Assembly: GCA_002753135.1 (NCBI GenBank)
Contig: PDZV01000028.1
Coordinates: forward strand, 1-49,866
DNA: 49,866 nt
Direction of reading: 5' to 3'
DNA from: Magnetococcales bacterium WMHbinv6
GTDB lineage: Bacteria > Pseudomonadota > Magnetococcia > Magnetococcales > Magnetaquicoccaceae
Shown here one piece after another: positions 11,146 through 21,191 of the stretch; within the stretch, counting starts at the first letter, position 1, and every line of letters starts with the position of its first letter. The notes below the pieces were generated by a model. That model had not been told where the DNA came from. It saw nothing but the letters and a program-made list of their open reading frames with translations, and made no database searches. Made by a program: the position numbers and the translations under genes.

Positions 11146-11235
11146 GAAAGTCACTCTTTTAGTTTCCTTTTGTCCCGTGTCAGGGGCATGCAACCCTGAC
11201 AACGGCGTAACCGACTTTTATTGGGCCAAGAAACC

Positions 11236-14200
11236 ATGAAAAGCACCTCCCCGAATCGTCTTTCCATGCGGTTGTTGTTGCTGTGTGCCGTGTTGGGTGG
11301 TGGCGTATTGACTGCGCAGGCAGCAGAGCAGCAGGCCACGACCGATAAAGCAACATCCGACAAAGCGGCTGCCGACAAGGCTGCTGCCGACAAAACAGTC
11401 AACAAGGCTGCCGACAAAACGGCTGCCGACAAGGCAGCAAACAAAGGAAACACAGAGAAAGGGGCTGCCGATATAACAGCGGCAGGCAAACCACCCACCG
11501 ATAAAGGGGCCGCAGCCCCCAAACCCCTGACAGCGGCTGAAGAGGCCAAACTGGGTAAAGAGGCCGCTGCCAAAAATGATTTGGCCAAAGCGGTTGCCCA
11601 TTTTGCCAAAGCACATCTTTTGGAACCTGCCAATCAGGATTATGCCCACAGTGCGGCGGTCTTGAGTGCCGGGCAAGGGTTGGCAGAACAGGCGCTCGTC
11701 TATTTCAAAGCCGCGACCAAACTGGCTGCCATGGCAGGCAAACATGAAGATATTGCCTTTTATAATGATGAAATTTCCAAACTGGTCAGTGATGTTCCGG
11801 CCTGGGTCAACGAAAAAATTGCGGCAGCAGCCCCGGTACCCCCAGGCAAAGAACAGGTTGTCGGCAACTGGTCGCAACTGAAAGCGGAAGTCAGCAACCT
11901 GCTGGCGCAGGGGCAAAAAGAACAGGCGGTTGCCGCCGCACAAAAGGCGCTGACAACGGCGCAGGAGGGGTTGGGTCCAAACCATTATGCCACCTTTGCC
12001 AGCCGTCGGGATTTGGCTGGCACTCTGATGCAGGTGGGTAAAATGGCGGAGTCCGACAAATTGCTGCAGCAGTCAATCAGCGACGGTCAACGCATTCTGG
12101 GTGCCAACCATCCAGATGTACTGATTGCACAAACCATGTTGGCTGACATCTATGAGGGTCAGACCAAATATAAAGAGGCCATCAACCAGCTCAAGGCGGC
12201 CCATGCGGCAGCCACTGCCGGATTGAGCGCCAAACATCCGACCACCTTCAGTGTGGCCATGGCCTTGATTCGCAACATGCGCAATGTCAGCCAGTACAAA
12301 GAGGCGGATGCCCTGTTAAAACCGTTGTGCGAAACCGAAGAGCAGGTGTTGGGCCCCTATCATGGTGACAGTGCCGATTGTCTGGTACAGTTGGCAAGCT
12401 TGCGCGTTTTGCAAGGAGATCACGAGGGGGCAGGCAGCACTTTTCAGAAAGTTTTGGCCATTCAAGAGGCCTCTTTACCGGCCAACAGCCCGATATTGTT
12501 GGCCACCCGTATTCAGCAGGCCGAATTTTTCCGGCATGAGGGGGATTATCCCAAAGCCAGAGAAGTGCTGGAGTTGGTGTTGAAACAGGCCGCCAAGGAA
12601 GATCCCAATGTCATGGAGGCAAAATCCGGCCTGGCCAAGGTCTTTGAAGATCAAGGCGAATTCAGCAAAGCGGAGGCCATGACCAATGAAGTATTGGCCC
12701 ATGAAAAAGCCGCCCTGGGCTATGATCATCCCAATACCCTGACCACCATGAACAATCTGGCCGGCATCTATCGCAAACAGAGCCGTCTGACCGACGCCGA
12801 ATCACTGTACAAAAAAACGCTGGAAAAATACCGCAAAGTATTTGGTGAAGATCATCTGGGTACCGTTTCGATCATGAACAATCTGGGCCTGGTCTATGAG
12901 ACCATGGGTCTGTATGACGAAGCGGAACTCCTGCTGCGCGCCGGTTTGGAAATTTCCAAAAAGGTGTTGGGAGACAACCACTTATCAACATTGGCCAACA
13001 TGAACAACCTGGCGTTGCTGCATGAAAGCCAGGGCAATTTTGAGCAGGCAGAGCCCCACTATCTGAATGCCATTGAAGCGGCCAGCTGGCAATTTGGTGC
13101 CGATCATCCGGATACCATGGCCTTTGTCAACAACCTGGCCTACCTGTACATGATGCAGGGCGGCTATGGCAAGGCCAAGCCGTTGTTTGAAAAGGTACTG
13201 GCCAGCTGGAACAAATCGTTGGGCGAAAAAAACAGTCGCACGATGAAGGCGATCAACAACCTGGCACGGGCAACGGCCAAGATGGGCAACCACAAGGAGG
13301 CGGAGCCACTGTTCGACAAAGCCCTGCAGCTGCGGCGCACGGTTTTGGGGGAAAATCATATGGACACCTTGCGTTCCATGTTGGATCTGGGTTCCCTCTA
13401 TGGTGCCAGCAAACGGTATCCGGAAGCGGAAAAACTGTTGCGCGACACCTTGCAACGGGCCGAGAAGGCCTTGGGAGATCAACATCCCTACACCTTTGAA
13501 ACGCTCAACAGCCTGGGCAAAATTTTGCGGGAACAGAACAAACAACAGGATGCCTTTCAACTGCTGAAAACCGGCTTCAACCGGCGCTCTTCATTCCTGA
13601 GCCGGATGTTGTGGGCCACCGGCGACAATGCCCGTGAGGGTTATATTCGTCTGCACCGCCCGGAGTTGGATGAATATTTGGGCGTGTTGGCCAAGGCCGA
13701 CGCCAGCCAGGCCGGTCGCGAGGTATTGGATGTCGGCCTGCAGCGCAAAGGACAACTGCTCAAGGTTACCTCCGAAATTCAACAAATTGTCCAGATGGGC
13801 AAAAATCCGCAGTTGAAGGCGTTGGGCGACAAACTGACCGCCACCCGAAAAAAGTTGGCTGCTCTGACCTTGTCTGGTCCGACGGAAGAGACCAAAAACA
13901 ATCACATGCAGGTGATTCATGAGCTGGAAAAATCGGTGGACACCCTGCAGATGGAACTGGGTCAGGCCAGCCGTCGTTTTCGTCAATCGGCACAGCAAAT
14001 TACCGTGGAACAACTGTCGACGGCACTGCCAAAAGATTCCGTACTGGTTGATTTTCTCGCCTACAACGATGGCGAGCAGAAAAAGCTGCTGGCCGGCATT
14101 TTACGGATCGAAAACGGCAAACCGGCGTTTGCATTGGTCACCTACCCGAACCTGAAAAAGTTGCAGGATGAAATTGTGCGCTATCGGGGTGCCATCCAGG

Positions 14201-15264
14201 AAGAGGGTCTGGAAGAGGAAGAGCTGCAGAAGATCGGCCAGGAGGTTTATGACCTGATCTGGAAACCGTTATTGCCTGGTCTGGCGGGTCGCAAAAATAT
14301 CTATGTGGTCCCGGATGACATGTTGAACATTTTACCGTTCAACGCCTTGATCGATGCCAAGGGTGAATATTTACTCAAAAACATGGATCTGCACATTCTT
14401 TCCACCAGCCGGGATTTGATCCCGGACAAAATGGAGTCGGCCAAAGGCAACTTTCTGATCATGGCTGGTCCGAACTACACTTCGACCAAAGTGGTCGATG
14501 CCACCTTGATGACCCAGGTTGCAGGTAAACGTTCGAGCAACCAGGATTCCATGCGTGGTTTTTCTGGTGGCGGTTTGCGTGGCTTAAAGTTTGACCCGCT
14601 GCCGGGTGCGGAAAAAGAGGGTAAACTGATCTCCGAAACCTCCAAATCGAAGAAAGAGGTCAATACCATCTTTACGGAAGATGCCGCCCAGGAAAATGTG
14701 GTGCAGACTTTGGCCGAGCCACCAAAAATGTTGCACATTGCCACCCATGGCTTTTTCCTCAAGGCCGATGAAAATCTGAAAAAGCGCTTGTTGAGCCTGC
14801 AGCGTGGTGCGGATGTCCATTTGCCCCCTCCGGGTGACAACCCGATGTTGCGGGCGGGTCTGGCTTTTGCCGGCATCAACGGCAGCGCTCCCTTCCTGGG
14901 CGAAATTCCCACCGAGAACGACGGGGTGTTGACCGCGCTGGAGGTGTTGGGTCTCAACCTGTCGGGCACCAAACTGGCGGTGTTGTCGGCCTGTGAAACC
15001 GGATTGGGTGAAATTCACGAAGGGGAAGGTGTCTACGGTTTGCGGCGTGCTTTCCAGGAGGCCGGAGTAAAAACGGTCATCTCCTCGTTGTGGGAGGTCA
15101 GCGATGCGGGTACGCAAGCGTTGATGACCGGCCTGTATGGCCGCCTGGCGGAAGGCAAATCGGCCCATGATGCCCTGTTGGAATCACAACGGGCCCTGCT
15201 GGCCTCCAAAGAGTGGAACTATCCCTATATCTGGTCGGCCTTCATGATGGTGGAGCGGATGTAG
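11236..15264 (+). CDS. Exported TPR-CHAT protein (caspase-like peptidase fold)
   Basis: The 1342-residue product has a signal peptide (~1-30, cleavage near TAQA|AEQ) and a low-complexity Lys/Ala/Asp region (~35-100, repeated A-A-D-K units). An array of kinesin-light-chain-type TPRs (~200-790) follows, with recurring NNLA..Y and LG.xHPxTL about every 42 residues, then a helical linker (~830-930) and a C-terminal CHAT domain (~940-1342). The dyad expected of CHAT/separase-like peptidases is visible: His1171 in LHIATHGFF and Cys1253 in LSACETGLG. Intracellular CHAT proteases act in caspase-like and CRISPR-linked cleavage; this one should face the periplasm. The frame is open from 11221, but ATG 11236 puts the signal peptide at the start. 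A strong hairpin terminator follows. Confidence 0.88.
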   Translation: MKSTSPNRLSMRLLLLCAVLGGGVLTAQAAEQQATTDKATSDKAAADKAAADKTVNKAADKTAADKAANKGNTEKGAADITAAGKPPTDKGAAAPKPLTAAEEAKLGKEAAAKNDLAKAVAHFAKAHLLEPANQDYAHSAAVLSAGQGLAEQALVYFKAATKLAAMAGKHEDIAFYNDEISKLVSDVPAWVNEKIAAAAPVPPGKEQVVGNWSQLKAEVSNLLAQGQKEQAVAAAQKALTTAQEGLGPNHYATFASRRDLAGTLMQVGKMAESDKLLQQSISDGQRILGANHPDVLIAQTMLADIYEGQTKYKEAINQLKAAHAAATAGLSAKHPTTFSVAMALIRNMRNVSQYKEADALLKPLCETEEQVLGPYHGDSADCLVQLASLRVLQGDHEGAGSTFQKVLAIQEASLPANSPILLATRIQQAEFFRHEGDYPKAREVLELVLKQAAKEDPNVMEAKSGLAKVFEDQGEFSKAEAMTNEVLAHEKAALGYDHPNTLTTMNNLAGIYRKQSRLTDAESLYKKTLEKYRKVFGEDHLGTVSIMNNLGLVYETMGLYDEAELLLRAGLEISKKVLGDNHLSTLANMNNLALLHESQGNFEQAEPHYLNAIEAASWQFGADHPDTMAFVNNLAYLYMMQGGYGKAKPLFEKVLASWNKSLGEKNSRTMKAINNLARATAKMGNHKEAEPLFDKALQLRRTVLGENHMDTLRSMLDLGSLYGASKRYPEAEKLLRDTLQRAEKALGDQHPYTFETLNSLGKILREQNKQQDAFQLLKTGFNRRSSFLSRMLWATGDNAREGYIRLHRPELDEYLGVLAKADASQAGREVLDVGLQRKGQLLKVTSEIQQIVQMGKNPQLKALGDKLTATRKKLAALTLSGPTEETKNNHMQVIHELEKSVDTLQMELGQASRRFRQSAQQITVEQLSTALPKDSVLVDFLAYNDGEQKKLLAGILRIENGKPAFALVTYPNLKKLQDEIVRYRGAIQEEGLEEEELQKIGQEVYDLIWKPLLPGLAGRKNIYVVPDDMLNILPFNALIDAKGEYLLKNMDLHILSTSRDLIPDKMESAKGNFLIMAGPNYTSTKVVDATLMTQVAGKRSSNQDSMRGFSGGGLRGLKFDPLPGAEKEGKLISETSKSKKEVNTIFTEDAAQENVVQTLAEPPKMLHIATHGFFLKADENLKKRLLSLQRGADVHLPPPGDNPMLRAGLAFAGINGSAPFLGEIPTENDGVLTALEVLGLNLSGTKLAVLSACETGLGEIHEGEGVYGLRRAFQEAGVKTVISSLWEVSDAGTQALMTGLYGRLAEGKSAHDALLESQRALLASKEWNYPYIWSAFMMVERM
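11368..11432 (+). repeat. Short degenerate tandem repeat coding for A-A-D-K units
   Basis: The 11-mer GCTGCCGACAA occurs at 11368, 11383, 11407 and 11422, with a variant at 11464. It encodes the Lys/Ala/Asp-rich segment after the signal peptide of the CHAT protein. Spacings of 15 and 24 bp show unit-wise expansion in frame, suggesting a length-variable region. Confidence 0.6.
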
Positions 15265-15299
15265 GGCTTCCGCTTGCCATTGATTGCATTGTCACCTGC

Positions 15300-15346
15300 A
15301 ACGGGATCCAGGCTCCGTAGAGAACTTGGATCCCGTTTGTTGTTTT
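15300..15346 (+). terminator. Rho-independent terminator after the TPR-CHAT gene
   Basis: AACGGGATCCA (15300-15310) pairs perfectly with TGGATCCCGTT (15327-15337), an 11-bp stem with a 16-nt loop. It is followed by TGTTGTTTT. The hairpin starts 36 bp after the CHAT stop codon. Confidence 0.75.
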
Positions 15347-15490
15347 AGGACCTGTTCTCATTCGAGGCCAAAAGCCCTTCAGACAAGGCGCTGGGCCGCG
15401 CGCAGCGCAGCATACAACTTGTATGTGAGCAGCAGAGCGGCCCAGCAACGCCGTATCAAGGGGTTGTGGACCGAATGAGAACAGGCCCTA
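15346..15490. repeat. 145-bp inverted-repeat element (MITE-like or structured repeat)
   Basis: The ends are TAGGACCTGTTCTCATTCG (15346-15364) and its reverse complement with one mismatch (15472-15490). Inside are two further dyads: GCTGGGCCGC (about 15390-15399) with GCGGCCCAGC (about 15437-15446), and CATACAA with TTGTATG touching at the centre (15411-15425). The whole can fold into one long cruciform or hairpin. It carries no believable gene. From memory, similar palindromic repeats with CTGTTCTCATTCG ends and an internal GAGCAGCAGAG stretch are scattered in several proteobacterial genomes, but I cannot check this here. Confidence 0.6.
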
Positions 15491-15851
15491 AGATAAGGCG
15501 GTTTCTTAAAATAACGGCACGCCTTATTGTTGCCGGAACCCTTCATCAACCGGTGACATCTCCTGGGCCAGATTGTTGAGCGGGCAGACTAACACAACCA
15601 ATAACGCACCCCGTTCCTGCACCGCGTATCCATGGCATGCAACTGCCTTGCCTCCCAGCCGAAAGCAGCCATTGCCTTTGTGGCGTGAGCGCATTTTAAT
15701 TGATATTTCTCAAATAATCTCTTGCAATTTCAGCAGATCAATACAGAATGTCAGCTTATGATCGGAGCAGGTAGCAGGCAGCTTGACCATGAGTGGTTTG
15801 ATCAGATTGCAAACCAACGGCAGAGTGGTATCAAGGTCACGGAAGAGAGCG
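15491..15851. other. Gene-poor interval before the chemoreceptor gene
   Basis: Apart from a hairpin, ATAAGGCG (15493-15500) with CGCCTTAT (15520-15527), I see no gene or clear promoter here. A 62-residue open frame (15573-15761) has no ribosome site or recognisable motif. The stretch 15690-15740 is AT-rich and may hold the promoter of the downstream gene. Confidence 0.45.
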
Positions 15852-18623
15852 ATGAAGAGTAACCTGTTTTTTTCCTCTGTATGGCAGAGATTGGCAACAT
15901 CCATCAGTTTACGTATCCTGGCGGTGGTCGGCATCATCGGTATGGCGAGTCTGTCCACGTTGGGTGGTTTATTGATCCGGGCAATGGAAGACAATCTGCT
16001 GCAACAAAGCGATGAAACGATCCGCACCTTGGCAGATGTGGCCAGTGAGGGGCTACAAACCATCATGTTGGCAGGCTATTCCGACATTGCCAACCAGTAT
16101 GCACAAAACCTGAAAAAAGTGCATGAATTACAGGAGTTTCGCATTCTCAATCGCTTTGGTGTGGAGGCGTTTCAAGCGAACACCACCAACCCGTTGCCGG
16201 TCAGTGATGAGATTGCACAAGCAATCAAACAGGCTGTGGCACAAAAAAATGTGCAATCTTTACTGATACGTGATGGTGCGACAACCAATCGGCTTCTGCT
16301 GGTTCCTTTACTCAACCGTGAACCGTGTCATGCCTGTCATGGCAGTGATCATGAGGTTCGTGGTCTTTTTTTATTATCCATCTCTTTGGCCGGTGTAGAA
16401 CAACAAATCGGGCAGGCCCGCCTGGCGGCGTTGCTGGTCGTCTGTGCCGCTGTCACGCTTTTTTTACTGCTGCTGGGCTACATTTTGTCCCGATCGGTGA
16501 AACAACCTCTCCAGGCGATCAGTATGGCTATTGATGAAACGGCCAAAGGTAACCTGACCGAGAGGATTCGCCATTCCGGTAAAGATGAAATTGCCCGCAT
16601 AGCCGGCAACATCAATCGGCTTAAAGAGCAAATGATCAGTAATATCCGGATGATCAACCTACAATCCGGCAGTATTACCGCCTTCATCAAAGAGGTGTTG
16701 CAGCTGCGCAAAGCCATTGGGGATGATGCGGTTGGCATTCGCAGCATGGCCGAAAATGTGGCGGCGGAAAACCAGCAGCTTAACGAAAAAATCAGCCAGA
16801 TGCGCCTGCTGCTGCAGCAGGCTGAGGAACAAATCGCCCATTTGACTGCGGCAACCGGCGAAGTGGCGACCAGCATTCAAGGCAGTGCCAGCAACGCCGA
16901 CCGCACCAGCACCAATGTGGATACCGTTTCTGCCGCTGCTGCACAAATGATGAATAATGTCAAAGAGGTCAATATTCGTCTGACCCAAGTGGGGCATGCG
17001 GTCGTGCAGGTCTCCGAATCGGTCCAGGTGATGACCACCTCTTTTGCCGATATTCAAGGCCGTTGTCAAAAAGCCAGCGAAGCCTCCCGCGAAGCGCATC
17101 ATTACGCACAAGAAACTTTTTCTGCCGTTTCACGACTCTCCCTGTCGGCAACAGAAATCGGCAACGTGGTTGAACTGATCAATAATATTGCTGAACAAAC
17201 CAATATTTTGGCCTTGAACGCCTCCATCGAAGCTGCCGGAGCAGGTTCTTTTGGGACAGGGTTTGCGGTGGTCGCCAATGAGGTCAAGGAGTTGGCGCGG
17301 CAAACGGCAGATGCGACACAGATCATTACGGACAAAATTAAAACGATTCAGCAGGATACATCTGGCGTAACGGAAGATGTCAAAGATATTTCCAATATTA
17401 TTTTGCGCATCAACACCGAAAACGGACATATTTTGCAGGCGGTGGATGAGCAGCATCATACGGTACAGGATATTTCCTCGGCGATGGGCAATGTTTCCTC
17501 GGCCACCACGACGGTCAACAGCCATATTGATCATCTCAACAACGCCGCACGCGATGTCGCGCATGCAGCGGCACAAGCCTCACAAAGCACAACGGAAATC
17601 GCCAACAGTTCGACCAGGATTGCCGATTCTGCACAAAGGATGGCAGAACAGTCTACCCGTTCGTTGGCCTTTATTCGCGAGGTATTGACCTCTTCGCAAC
17701 ATACGGAAAAATCCTCGGCGATTGTGCGCAGCTGCATTCAGGAGACTTTGTCCGTGGTGGGCAAGTTGCAAGGAACCGTCAACCATTTTCGTGCCTTGGG
17801 CGATGTGGCCAGCAATATCAGCGATGCACTCTCTGCCGCCCAATCGACATTGGATATCGGGACAGAACGGTTTGATGTGCGTGCGGTCAAGGAATCTTTA
17901 CTGCACCTGCTGGGTCGTCTGGAGCGGTCGATTTACGGGCATAATCCGGTCACCATGGCAGAGATCGAGCAACAGTGTCAAATCTGTCTCCTGGAACAGA
18001 ACCTGGTCAGCAGCTGCCATGCAGAGGAAGCGTACCAGAAACTGCAAAAGACCCACCAACAAATTCATCGCACCTGCCGGGAGATTGTCGCCCGCTTGGG
18101 AGAAATAAATCACGAGCAGGAGGCCATCGAAGCGGTACGCTTCTTTCAGGAGTTGGTCAATACTCTCTTTGAACAACTGGATTTGCTCTATTTGGGACAG
18201 ACAGCTGCTGAACAAAGCACCCTGCTGATCAGCTGGCATCCGGAACTGAGTGTTGCTGTGCCACAACTGGATAACGATCATCAGCGTTTGATCGACATGA
18301 TCAATGCGTTGTACAGCGCCCTCAAACATAATCAGGGACAGGCTGTGCTGACCACCATCATCGAGAGTCTGATCGATTACAGCAAAACCCATTTTGCCCG
18401 AGAAGAACAGCATATGACCCGTATTGGCTATCCGGAACTGGCGGCACATCGGCAAGAACATCAGGCGTTTATTGAACGGGTCATGCAGTTCATGCACAAA
18501 CAGCAGGAAGATCCGTTTGCGCTCTCCAGTGCCATGCTGCACTATCTGCGCAAATGGTTGTTGCAGCACATTCAAGGATCGGACAAAGCCTATTGCCGGT
18601 TTCAGGCGACAGGCAAGGGATAG
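15852..18623 (+). CDS. Methyl-accepting chemotaxis protein with heme c, CZB-like and hemerythrin domains
   Basis: The 923-residue protein has membrane helix 1 (~19-42), a periplasmic sensor with one heme c site (PCHACHGSDH, Cys159-Cys162-His163), helix 2 (~193-213), and HAMP (~213-265). Next is a long signalling coiled coil whose tip reads IAEQTNILALNASIEAAGAGSFGTGFAVVANEV (~445-478). After it a CZB-like zinc-binding module carries His685, Cys709, His735 and His739. A C-terminal hemerythrin domain (~791-917) shows DNDHQRL, THFAREEQHM, HRQEHQAF and LLQHIQGSDKAY, a complete di-iron ligand set. It should report redox state or oxygen to the chemotaxis kinase. ATG 15852 has GGAAGAG 5 bp upstream; ATG 15789 is an alternative. 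Its stop codon directly abuts the stop of the convergent next gene. Confidence 0.93.
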   Translation: MKSNLFFSSVWQRLATSISLRILAVVGIIGMASLSTLGGLLIRAMEDNLLQQSDETIRTLADVASEGLQTIMLAGYSDIANQYAQNLKKVHELQEFRILNRFGVEAFQANTTNPLPVSDEIAQAIKQAVAQKNVQSLLIRDGATTNRLLLVPLLNREPCHACHGSDHEVRGLFLLSISLAGVEQQIGQARLAALLVVCAAVTLFLLLLGYILSRSVKQPLQAISMAIDETAKGNLTERIRHSGKDEIARIAGNINRLKEQMISNIRMINLQSGSITAFIKEVLQLRKAIGDDAVGIRSMAENVAAENQQLNEKISQMRLLLQQAEEQIAHLTAATGEVATSIQGSASNADRTSTNVDTVSAAAAQMMNNVKEVNIRLTQVGHAVVQVSESVQVMTTSFADIQGRCQKASEASREAHHYAQETFSAVSRLSLSATEIGNVVELINNIAEQTNILALNASIEAAGAGSFGTGFAVVANEVKELARQTADATQIITDKIKTIQQDTSGVTEDVKDISNIILRINTENGHILQAVDEQHHTVQDISSAMGNVSSATTTVNSHIDHLNNAARDVAHAAAQASQSTTEIANSSTRIADSAQRMAEQSTRSLAFIREVLTSSQHTEKSSAIVRSCIQETLSVVGKLQGTVNHFRALGDVASNISDALSAAQSTLDIGTERFDVRAVKESLLHLLGRLERSIYGHNPVTMAEIEQQCQICLLEQNLVSSCHAEEAYQKLQKTHQQIHRTCREIVARLGEINHEQEAIEAVRFFQELVNTLFEQLDLLYLGQTAAEQSTLLISWHPELSVAVPQLDNDHQRLIDMINALYSALKHNQGQAVLTTIIESLIDYSKTHFAREEQHMTRIGYPELAAHRQEHQAFIERVMQFMHKQQEDPFALSSAMLHYLRKWLLQHIQGSDKAYCRFQATGKG

Positions 18624-21191
18624 TTATCCCTGTTGCCAAATACGCCACAAATGGCTTTCCAGATCCGCCGTATAGCCTACGGCATCGCACAAAGGCGAGC
18701 GCTGCATCTGGGCCCGCAGTCCGGCGCGCAAGCTGGCAAGGGTGGAGAGATTGGCTGCCAGTTGTTGGGCAATCTGTACATACTCTTCCTGGGTATTGGC
18801 AATCCATTGCGGATAACCCAGGGTGGTCAGCAAACTGCAGCCCATGCGGCTCATGAACCCTGCACCGGCCAGGGTAACCAGCGGCACACCCATCCAGAGG
18901 GTGTCACAACTGGTTGTGCCGCCATTGAAGGGGATGGGATCCAGGGCAATATCCACCTCACCATATTCGGCCAGATAGCGTTCTGCCGGGGAGGCCGGGC
19001 GCAGATGGATCCGTTCTTCACGAATGCCATGTTCGGCAAAGCGCTGCCGCACCTGTTGACAGGTTCCCGCGTCTCCGAGACTGGAGGCTTTCAGCAACAA
19101 GCGGGACTCGGCAACGGCATGCAGCAGTTTTGCCCACAGAGCGACACAACTCGGCGAAAGTTTGGGCAGATTGTTAAAGCTGCCAAAGGTGATCTGTCCG
19201 TGGCGCAGCGCCGGCAATGGGGCCACATCCGGTGCCGACTGACGCTGGTAACAGAGAAAACTTGCCCGCAGGCGAATGATCTGTTCGCTGTAGAGATGGC
19301 TTTCCTGAACAGGAATCACATAGCGATCGGCCAAAAGGTAATCGATTGTGTCCAGCCCGGTACTAAAAGGATAGCCCAGAAAAGTAGCTTGTACCGGGGC
19401 AGGGCGGCAGGCCAACAGATCCATGCGTCCCCCCGCCGTATAACCGGCCAGATCGATCAAAATATCAATCTCATCCTGCCGAATTTGCTCTGCCATGCTC
19501 TCCCGTTTGCACCCCTCCCAATCGCGCCAGCGATGGGCATAACCCTGCAGGCGTTGTGTGGTCTCATCAGCCGCATGGGGCAAGGCATAACAGGTGACAT
19601 AAAAACGATCGGCATCATGGTGTTGCAGGATGGGTTCCATGAACAAGCCGACGGGATGGCTGCGAAAATCGGGCGACAGATAACCGATGTGACAGCGCTG
19701 ACGCCGGGAAGAGCGCACCCTGCTTGCAGACAGTGGTGTCACCTGCTGCCGCACCTGCAAGGCCAGTTGTTGATGGAGCTGGCTTTGTTGCTGGCTATCC
19801 AGGCTGTCCCGATAGAGGGAAGAGAAGAGGGTATTGCCGATGGCCACTAAGCTGTCCGGCTTTTTTTGCCGCGCTCTGGCCAACAGCTGTTGGCCCTCTT
19901 CGATGCGGGCCTGCTGCACCAAAGCGAATGCCTGCATGCCCAGCAAATCCACATGGTCCGGATAACGGCGCAACAGCGGCTCCATCTGCTGCATGGCCTC
20001 ACTGATCAGCCCCAGATCGATCAACGTACAGGCCAGACTGGCCATCGTATCCGGATCATCCGGTTGCAGGCGGGCCGCCTGACGCAAATAGGCCAACCCC
20101 TCTTCATGGCGTTTTTTGATCCGACACAAGGTACCCAGATTGGCCAAGGCAACCACATGTTGTGGATCAATGGCCAGGCAACGACGCCATGCGGCCTCTG
20201 CAGCCACATTGTTGCCCAGCGCCCGCAAAACGACACCCATGGCATTGGCGGTGGTGGCCGAACCGGGTTGCAGGGTTTCCAGGCGCTGGTAGATGGCCAG
20301 GGCAGCCTCCGGCTCCTCCTGCTGAAAATAGCAATCACCTTGCAAGCGCAGCAGTTCGACATGATCGGGCCACAGGGTCAGCGCCTCTTGCAACAGTAGC
20401 TGGCTCTCTTCTGTCCGCTTTTGCGATTGACAAAGGCGAATCAGATTCAACCATGCCGTGTCCAGATCCCGCCGTTGTTGCAACGCCTGGCGATAACAGG
20501 GTTCCGCCGCCGCAGCATCCTGCTGGCGTTGATAGAGGTTGCCCAGATTGATCCAGGCTTCGGCAGGTTCGGCCAGCCAGTGGACGGCCTGTTGATAGTG
20601 CTGAATGGCCTCCTCAGTTTGACCGGCATCGGCCAGTGCATTGGCCAGGTTGTAGGCGCTTTCGCCGCGCTGTTGCGTGTTGGTTTCCGCTTGGGCCAAA
20701 GCCTGCCGATGGTGTTGAATGGCCAGCGCAAAACGCCCCATCTGCCGGTAGAGGTTGCCCAAATTGCGGTGGGCCAACGGCAGACGTGGCTGCAGCGCCA
20801 AAGCGGTTTGATAATGGCCGATGGCCTGTTCATGTTGTCCCAGATCACGCAACAGATTGGCCAGATTATAATGGGCCGGAAAGAGAGAGGGCTGACGTTC
20901 TATGGCGCTCTGAAAACTGGTGACCGCTGCGGACAACAGCCCCATTTTTTGCTGCAGATTGCCGTAATTGAACCACACTTCGCCAGGAACCTGGCCTGTT
21001 TGCAACCGTTTTTGATAAAGGGCCAGCGCCGTATCATAATTGTGCAGGCGGGCATGCAGAGAGGCCAGATTGGTCAAAGCAACGGCATGCTGCTCATCCT
21101 GCTGCAACAGTTGGTGATAAAGGGATAGCGCCTCCTCCAACCTTCCCTGCTGGTGGGCCAGCAGGGCTTGTTCGAGCAGTGGAACAGACAC
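18624..21191 (-). CDS. TPR protein with GT41 (O-GlcNAc transferase/SPINDLY-like) catalytic domain
   Basis: The 855-residue protein has about twelve TPR units in residues ~1-460 (AHYNLANLLRDLGQ, AHRNLGNLYRQMG and so on) and a GT41 domain in ~490-855. Family motifs are visible: IGYLSPDFRSHPVG with the active-site His, HLYSEQIIRLR, ITFGSFNNLPKLSP with the UDP-binding Lys, and DPIPFNGGTTSCDTLWMGVP. Such enzymes glycosylate Ser/Thr of proteins in the cytosol, using UDP-GlcNAc or another nucleotide sugar; the substrate here is unknown. GTG 21191 is the start, and its G is the last base of the mlaC stop codon (TAGTG), so it is translationally tied to the mla operon. The DUF-type OGT C-terminus looks intact. 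Confidence 0.9.
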   Translation of the reverse strand: MSVPLLEQALLAHQQGRLEEALSLYHQLLQQDEQHAVALTNLASLHARLHNYDTALALYQKRLQTGQVPGEVWFNYGNLQQKMGLLSAAVTSFQSAIERQPSLFPAHYNLANLLRDLGQHEQAIGHYQTALALQPRLPLAHRNLGNLYRQMGRFALAIQHHRQALAQAETNTQQRGESAYNLANALADAGQTEEAIQHYQQAVHWLAEPAEAWINLGNLYQRQQDAAAAEPCYRQALQQRRDLDTAWLNLIRLCQSQKRTEESQLLLQEALTLWPDHVELLRLQGDCYFQQEEPEAALAIYQRLETLQPGSATTANAMGVVLRALGNNVAAEAAWRRCLAIDPQHVVALANLGTLCRIKKRHEEGLAYLRQAARLQPDDPDTMASLACTLIDLGLISEAMQQMEPLLRRYPDHVDLLGMQAFALVQQARIEEGQQLLARARQKKPDSLVAIGNTLFSSLYRDSLDSQQQSQLHQQLALQVRQQVTPLSASRVRSSRRQRCHIGYLSPDFRSHPVGLFMEPILQHHDADRFYVTCYALPHAADETTQRLQGYAHRWRDWEGCKRESMAEQIRQDEIDILIDLAGYTAGGRMDLLACRPAPVQATFLGYPFSTGLDTIDYLLADRYVIPVQESHLYSEQIIRLRASFLCYQRQSAPDVAPLPALRHGQITFGSFNNLPKLSPSCVALWAKLLHAVAESRLLLKASSLGDAGTCQQVRQRFAEHGIREERIHLRPASPAERYLAEYGEVDIALDPIPFNGGTTSCDTLWMGVPLVTLAGAGFMSRMGCSLLTTLGYPQWIANTQEEYVQIAQQLAANLSTLASLRAGLRAQMQRSPLCDAVGYTADLESHLWRIWQQG

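Follow-up and report, generated by a model that had tools for sequence, protein, structure and literature searches.

A Magnetococcales chemoreceptor combining a periplasmic heme-c sensor domain, a CZB-derived bundle with an altered ligand set and a C-terminal hemerythrin

Chemoreceptors with heme, hemerythrin or zinc-binding modules have been described separately. The periplasmic heme-c receptors GSU0582 and GSU0935 of Geobacter sulfurreducens bind NO and CO and also show redox-sensor behaviour at -156/-251 mV; in GSU0582 the distal position is taken by Met60 when the heme is reduced, and NO or CO displaces it (PMC8396549). DcrA is reported to sense O2 or redox. A 2026 preprint places this heme-sensor family in the Cache superfamily, and describes an sCache_heme member, fused to a signalling module, that holds NO tightly, releases it slowly and forms no stable O2 complex (PMC12889525). 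The hemerythrin domain of DcrH (DcrH-Hr), with the five-His, one-Glu, one-Asp ligand set of its family, undergoes a redox-dependent conformational change; its coupling to the MCP is unproven, as is an O2 role in vivo (PMC9388753). In CZB domains, position 4 of the Cys motif in helix alpha-3 is almost universally Gly (PMC8262984). In the CZB receptor TlpD, loss of the His315-Zn bond goes with shifts of 18-20 A at the hairpin tip (PMC12871147), and in recent work zinc availability connects CZB receptors with attraction to O2 (PMC13370339). Here we describe a receptor in which homologs of all three modules occur in one chain. To our knowledge, no magneto-aerotaxis receptor of magnetotactic cocci has been tied to defined sensor chemistry.

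Architecture and surroundings of the receptor gene

The window, that is, the whole stretch of DNA analysed, comprises 49,866 nucleotides from the genome of a magnetotactic-type bacterium of the Magnetococcales. Positions 15852-18623 on the plus strand form a single intact open reading frame of 923 amino acids plus stop, and GGAAGAG immediately 5' of the ATG is a plausible ribosome site. The encoded protein runs in the order TM1, periplasmic c-heme Cache domain, TM2, HAMP, MCP signalling domain, CZB-derived bundle and bacteriohemerythrin:

15852-18623, plus strand: whole gene, membrane chemoreceptor (MCP), 923 aa; full-length orthologs at 70, 53, 54, 49 and 33% identity
15909-15977, plus strand: TM1, about residues 20-42; hydropathy peak
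16047-16388, plus strand: periplasmic c-heme Cache sensor (sCache_heme / PF21563 Mcp40H-20), residues 66-179; Pfam E 7.7e-8, above cut-off
16065-16067, plus strand: Met72, candidate distal heme ligand; aligned with Met60 of GSU0582, invariant in 5 of 5 ortholog alignment rows
16326-16340, plus strand: CxxCH heme-c attachment motif, Cys159-His163; read from the sequence, invariant in orthologs
16422-16490, plus strand: TM2, about residues 191-213; hydropathy peak
16485-16631, plus strand: HAMP domain, residues 212-260; Pfam 39 bits, cut-off 25
17067-17552, plus strand: MCP signalling domain (MCPsignal), residues 406-567; Pfam 104 bits, E 9.4e-30
17877-18197, plus strand: CZB-derived helical bundle, residues 676-782; sub-threshold CZB profile, ortholog profile, five helices in the AF2 model
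18225-18602, plus strand: bacteriohemerythrin domain, residues 792-917, ligands H810, H847, E851, H866, H870, H906 and D911; NCBIfam 131 bits

The original prediction had read the protein as a chemoreceptor with heme-c, CZB-like and hemerythrin sites and had proposed a domain search, in which MCPsignal, HAMP, Hemerythrin and PF21563 all scored above their Pfam cut-offs. The protein qualifies as an MCP by its signalling domain and by a HAMP domain downstream of the second TM helix. The tip of the MCP hairpin (window 17229-17264, residues 460-471) reads EAAGAGSFGTGF, as compared with EAAGAGSFGAGF in the closest ortholog and EAAGAGEAGKGF in paralogs, so that AGSFGTGF stands where the paralogs have AGEAGKGF. 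This altered tip could change contacts to CheA/CheW or within receptor trimers.

There are no chemotaxis genes among the nearest neighbours of the receptor gene, which are instead a TPR-CHAT protein, a TPR glycosyltransferase and Mla transport genes. The TPR protein upstream (window 11221-15264, plus strand) has a C-terminal CHAT (caspase-like) domain. Downstream and convergent to the receptor, window 18624-21191 on the minus strand encodes a TPR protein with a glycosyltransferase family 41 (O-GlcNAc transferase-like) domain; mlaC, mlaD and an ABC ATPase gene adjoin it on the same strand.

The periplasmic heme sensor and the cytosolic hemerythrin

The outer domain matches the profile of PF21563, the class-40H heme sensor (sCache_heme, Tll0287-like c-heme Cache), and carries an extracytoplasmic CxxCH. 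This motif arose by chance in 12 of 2000 shuffles of the receptor protein. Because two hydrophobic peaks bracket the domain, the CxxCH lies on the periplasmic and not the cytosolic side, and the periplasmic heme-c motif that had been proposed at Cys159-His163 was borne out by structural matches as well. When a profile of five orthologs was run against the PDB (hmmsearch), it found GSU0582 (3b47, E 6.5e-7) and GSU0935 (3b42, E 9.8e-6) with the CxxCH aligned, and Foldseek ranked 3b42 first for the predicted sensor structure (pLDDT 73). Sequence identity to the two Geobacter sensors is 18-19%. Met72 was equated with Met60 of GSU0582 through chain residue 26 and an offset of 34, the offset being set by His143 as the His of CxxCH. 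The invariant CxxCH and the cytochrome c assembly genes in the receptor's own genome are indirect signs that heme c would be attached covalently.

What this heme would report is a separate matter. Published biochemistry of signalling heme-Cache domains points to NO or redox and away from a stable O2 complex (PMC12889525), so that a periplasmic oxygen sensor is not to be taken for granted and oxygen may, by analogy, go unreported by the outer domain altogether. One alternative that we take seriously, though at less than even weight, is that the domain is a nitric oxide sensor, in which case periplasmic NO from denitrification, rather than a second oxygen or redox reading, would be integrated with cytosolic O2. 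The slow NO dissociation and missing stable O2 complex of the signalling sCache_heme member (PMC12889525), and NO and CO binding by GSU0582/0935 (PMC8396549), are consistent with such a role, but the Geobacter proteins behave as redox sensors too, and DcrA was reported as a sensor of O2 or redox.

The C-terminal domain scored 131 bits against a bacteriohemerythrin (NCBIfam) cut-off of 84, and residues 803-912 exceeded the Pfam Hemerythrin cut-off. All seven ligands of a di-iron-type hemerythrin, five His, one Glu and one Asp, are present at family spacing, in keeping with the di-iron domain of the original prediction. Profile and fold agree: the best Foldseek matches were DcrH-Hr structures (2avk/3waq/2awc), at about 30% identity, and hmmsearch of the PDB gave 2avk at E 2.6e-28. 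A di-iron centre is predicted and so, by analogy with DcrH, is a role in cytosolic O2 sensing. Among relatives of the receptor, the ligands are partly lost in L044 and L015 and gone in L135, so the clade as a whole does not depend on the O2 sensor.

An alternative role for the hemerythrin is local buffering of O2 or iron, with no signalling input. The genome (3.8 Mb) holds 21 hemerythrin matches, several of them stand-alone, and coupling to the MCP lacks proof even in DcrH (PMC9388753). We nevertheless consider a mere buffer unlikely, given that the fusion of a CZB-type bundle and hemerythrin to an MCP C-terminus recurs across the Magnetococcales genomes searched and that DcrH-Hr changes conformation with redox state. 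Other hemerythrin carriers in this genome include chemoreceptors, an HD-GYP-like protein, a PAS sensor kinase and a metallo-hydrolase/cyclic-nucleotide-binding-like protein.

The CZB-derived bundle and its ligand set

The original prediction had named a CZB-like site with His685, Cys709, His735 and His739 as its His/Cys set. All four residues are present, and the domain shares ancestry with CZB, but it lacks the 3His/1Cys set that defines CZB domains: His685 is off register, and an invariant Cys712 had been missed. The residues concerned are as follows:

17898-17906, plus strand: Leu683 (canonical CZB His position) to His685 (off register); alignment with HxxW of DgcZ and canonical paralogs
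17976-17987, plus strand: Cys709-x-x-Cys712, first half of a C2H2-type ligand set; invariant in 8 of 8 orthologs
18054-18068, plus strand: His735-xxx-His739, second half of the set; invariant in 8 of 8 orthologs

The expected match of the CZB profile to residues 677-747 fell short, at 12.3 bits against a cut-off of 29.4 (E 0.23, residues 688-746, with the first His outside the match; 18.3 bits in the genome search). As the plain profile was undecided, homology was tested through intermediates. A profile built from the eight orthologs found canonical CZB paralogs at about 1e-25 and, at about 1e-6, a small number of CZB proteins from beyond the class. Because the ortholog clade thus reaches canonical paralogs, sequence comparison makes common descent of the bundle with CZB domains secure. 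An AF2 model of the tail (pLDDT 82, pTM 0.55) has five helices in the expected order across the bundle, for comparison with the four-helix bundle of DgcZ and TlpD. For the CZB part, Foldseek with this model returned hemerythrins and catenin-like noise only, the DgcZ CZB structure 3t9o not being among the matches listed. The profile score is below cut-off, the 3His/1Cys set is missing and the fourth position of the alpha-3 motif is not Gly; we therefore term the bundle CZB-derived, since it lacks the ligands that define a CZB.

The register of the first ligand follows from two alignments. Around KxxHLxWLGRLE, the receptor aligns without gaps to canonical CZBs of the same order, and a canonical domain aligns to DgcZ (3t9o) over KAIDAHYQW in a phmmer search (E 0.21, used for register and not for significance). 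The His of HxxW (DgcZ His22) falls on Leu683, two residues before His685; a Trp three residues after His22 marks the same HxxW register in diguanylate cyclases (PMC8262984). A canonical zinc site with His685 as first ligand can draw on its presence in the receptor and in 5 of the 8 orthologs, and on a roughly suitable spacing to Cys709. Yet canonical paralogs and DgcZ, aligned without gaps, place the ligand at Leu683, a shift of two residues along a helix leads to a different face, and His685 is replaced by Asn in the closest ortholog (L010), by Ala in L015 and by Ser in L135. We regard a canonical site as very improbable, and reject His685 itself as zinc ligand on the grounds of register and conservation.

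Cys709 corresponds to the canonical CZB Cys and Cys712 occupies position 4 of the alpha-3 motif. In all eight orthologs with a readable CZB region (the window receptor, L010, L011, L012, L013, L136, L015 and L135), Cys709, Cys712, His735 and His739 are shared, so that a C2H2 set replaces canonical H-C-H-H. These four residues and the CxxCH are invariant among orthologs down to about 33% identity. Among 115 distinct Magnetococcales modules, 40 are H-CxxG-HH, 6 are H-CxxC-HH and 8 are [LIV]-CxxC-HH, these last being the clade of the window receptor; most others are ligand-depleted. In a quick tree of the modules the eight orthologs form one group (SH-aLRT 85), and CxxC requires at least 4 changes, a count that is indicative because the ligand columns were kept in the tree. 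High-scoring CZBs, mostly from outside the class, have CxxG wherever readable save in one partial second-domain match, in a sample picked by score and therefore biased to canonical forms. No description of a CZB with CxxC was found in the open-access literature, where absence is weak evidence. In a neighbouring Magnetococcales clade (e.g. L048, L149, L150) the canonical CZB His is lost and position 4 is Asp (V-CxxD-HH), which may be a further case of ligand exchange.

Redox activity is common in CxxC motifs. The bundle might no longer be a zinc sensor, with Cys709/Cys712 forming a reversible disulfide or the bundle serving as a metal-free spacer, so that only heme and hemerythrin sense. The loss of the canonical His fits this reading, as do many MCP-CZB-hemerythrin paralogs that have lost all CZB ligands and kept the fold and an intact hemerythrin, from which it follows that the bundle can work metal-free. 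However, a pure disulfide switch would not need His735 and His739, which are invariant together with both Cys in 8 of 8 orthologs, and three other CxxC lineages retain the canonical His too, as fits metal binding. We therefore consider loss of the metal site possible but doubtful, and favour a metal-binding C2H2 set. Because the equivalent of TlpD His315 is missing, zinc on these four residues would leave the hairpin helix ungripped. The comparison with TlpD suggests that the site is structural or thiol-redox in role, and not a TlpD-type switch.

Distribution, proposed mechanism and comparison with known receptors

The original prediction had called the three modules together unusual, and so they proved. 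In the searches described below, the triple architecture turned up in Magnetococcales alone, in 9 of 48 genomes, partial genes included, with hemerythrin ligands complete in six; heme-CZB and CZB-hemerythrin receptors are each common in the same genomes, and the triple is a minority form. Receptors with heme, MCP, CZB-derived and hemerythrin modules are found in G000, G006, G007, G009, G010, G024 and G019, the hemerythrin ligands being changed in G024 and absent in G019; in addition, G011 has one split over two contigs and G017 an N-terminal half at a contig end. The named relatives of the receptor are Magnetococcales MAGs. At 1e-60, a full-length profile matched 47 of 48 Magnetococcia and 0 of 350 other genomes of the phylum, and in 84,980 species scanned with two peptide patterns the CZB-hemerythrin tail appeared only in Magnetococcales. 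These searches were bounded by threshold or pattern, and independent fusions may exist beyond the order. Plasmid records gave only generic MCP matches covering 41-48% of the query. We found no description of CZB plus hemerythrin in one receptor in the open-access literature, a silence that is weak evidence. A tree of the N-terminal half has long branches and does not settle whether heme and tail were joined in L015 and L135 by the same event as in the rest; its rows L011_+ and L012_- are neighbouring short heme receptors, not triples.

In three orthologous genomes (L136:1489-3057, minus strand; G009:C6 near 94258; G010:C24 near 4558), the triple has as its opposite-strand neighbour a short heme-c chemoreceptor of about 525 aa. 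In the window genome, its homolog lies elsewhere (C16), apart from the triple. The same genome also encodes a 640-aa receptor (L137:3047-4966, G000:C16) with two tandem CZB domains in its N-terminal half (matches 15274-15486 and 15550-15759, both above cut-off), adjoining the genome's second heme-c receptor (553 aa).

The explanation that we put forward, at roughly even confidence, is of a transmembrane redox/oxygen-taxis receptor that has one working gas or redox sensor outside the membrane and another inside, with a remodelled CZB tail linking hairpin and inner sensor. On the outer side, the c-heme Cache domain would swap heme ligation, with Met72 bound when reduced and water or NO otherwise, and this switch would act through TM2 and HAMP on the MCP hairpin. 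Inside, the hemerythrin would read cytosolic O2 or redox through di-iron oxidation and pass its signal on via the CZB-derived bundle, where Cys709, Cys712, His735 and His739 most likely hold Zn2+, tying helix 3 to helix 4 and leaving the hairpin-derived helix untouched. Outer and inner inputs would meet at CheA. Integration of oxygen and redox signals, as originally proposed, is plausible, with the proviso on periplasmic O2 given above, and the receptor probably informs the cell about oxygen and redox state outside as well as inside the membrane. Its function is probably redox or oxygen taxis; the sequence analysis establishes architecture, homology, conserved motifs and spread within the clade, and we infer metal occupancy, the ligand sensed, the direction of the signal and sign of the response, and the route from hemerythrin to hairpin.

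A more far-reaching proposal is speculative and, taken whole, rather unlikely: that Cys2His2 in place of His-Cys-His-His is a new class of metal site in the CZB fold, with zinc freed from the hairpin helix to form a thiol-redox relay between hemerythrin and hairpin, while the periplasmic heme drives the same hairpin, so that redox would be compared across the membrane for magneto-aerotaxis. The receptor gives concrete, separable predictions: an outer heme ligand switch, an inner di-iron switch and, in between, a swapped zinc site. The CxxC/HxxxH variant further puts a current model of CZB signalling to the test, in that the TlpD hairpin is driven by breakage of the His315-zinc bond and that His is naturally absent here, while four potential ligands remain.

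We read the receptor as a variation on heme-c, hemerythrin and CZB receptors already described: the single modules are known, and the combination and ligand swap are new. Like GSU0582 and GSU0935 (3b47, 3b42), it has a periplasmic c-heme domain with CxxCH and a Met60 equivalent in an MCP, whereas those receptors, by their descriptions, have neither a CZB-derived bundle nor a hemerythrin. With Desulfovibrio vulgaris DcrH (2avk) it shares a periplasmic region, HAMP, MCP and a C-terminal hemerythrin with all ligands, but the published architecture of DcrH includes neither a heme-c motif nor a CZB domain (PMC9388753). As in Helicobacter pylori TlpD and Salmonella McpA, a CZB bundle lies C-terminal to the MCP hairpin, and as in these and E. 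coli DgcZ a Cys and an HxxxH pair occupy equivalent places. Those three proteins are 3His/1Cys (Gly at position 4 being near-universal in the family) and by description carry no heme-c or hemerythrin, whereas the receptor has both modules, Leu for the first His and Cys at position 4. Closest to home, Magnetococcales heme-CZB receptors (e.g. L146, L147, L034) share two modules and the backbone, but lack hemerythrin and have a canonical H-CxxG-HH CZB, and CZB-hemerythrin receptors (e.g. L053, L055) likewise share two modules and the backbone, but lack heme and have mixed CZB ligands.
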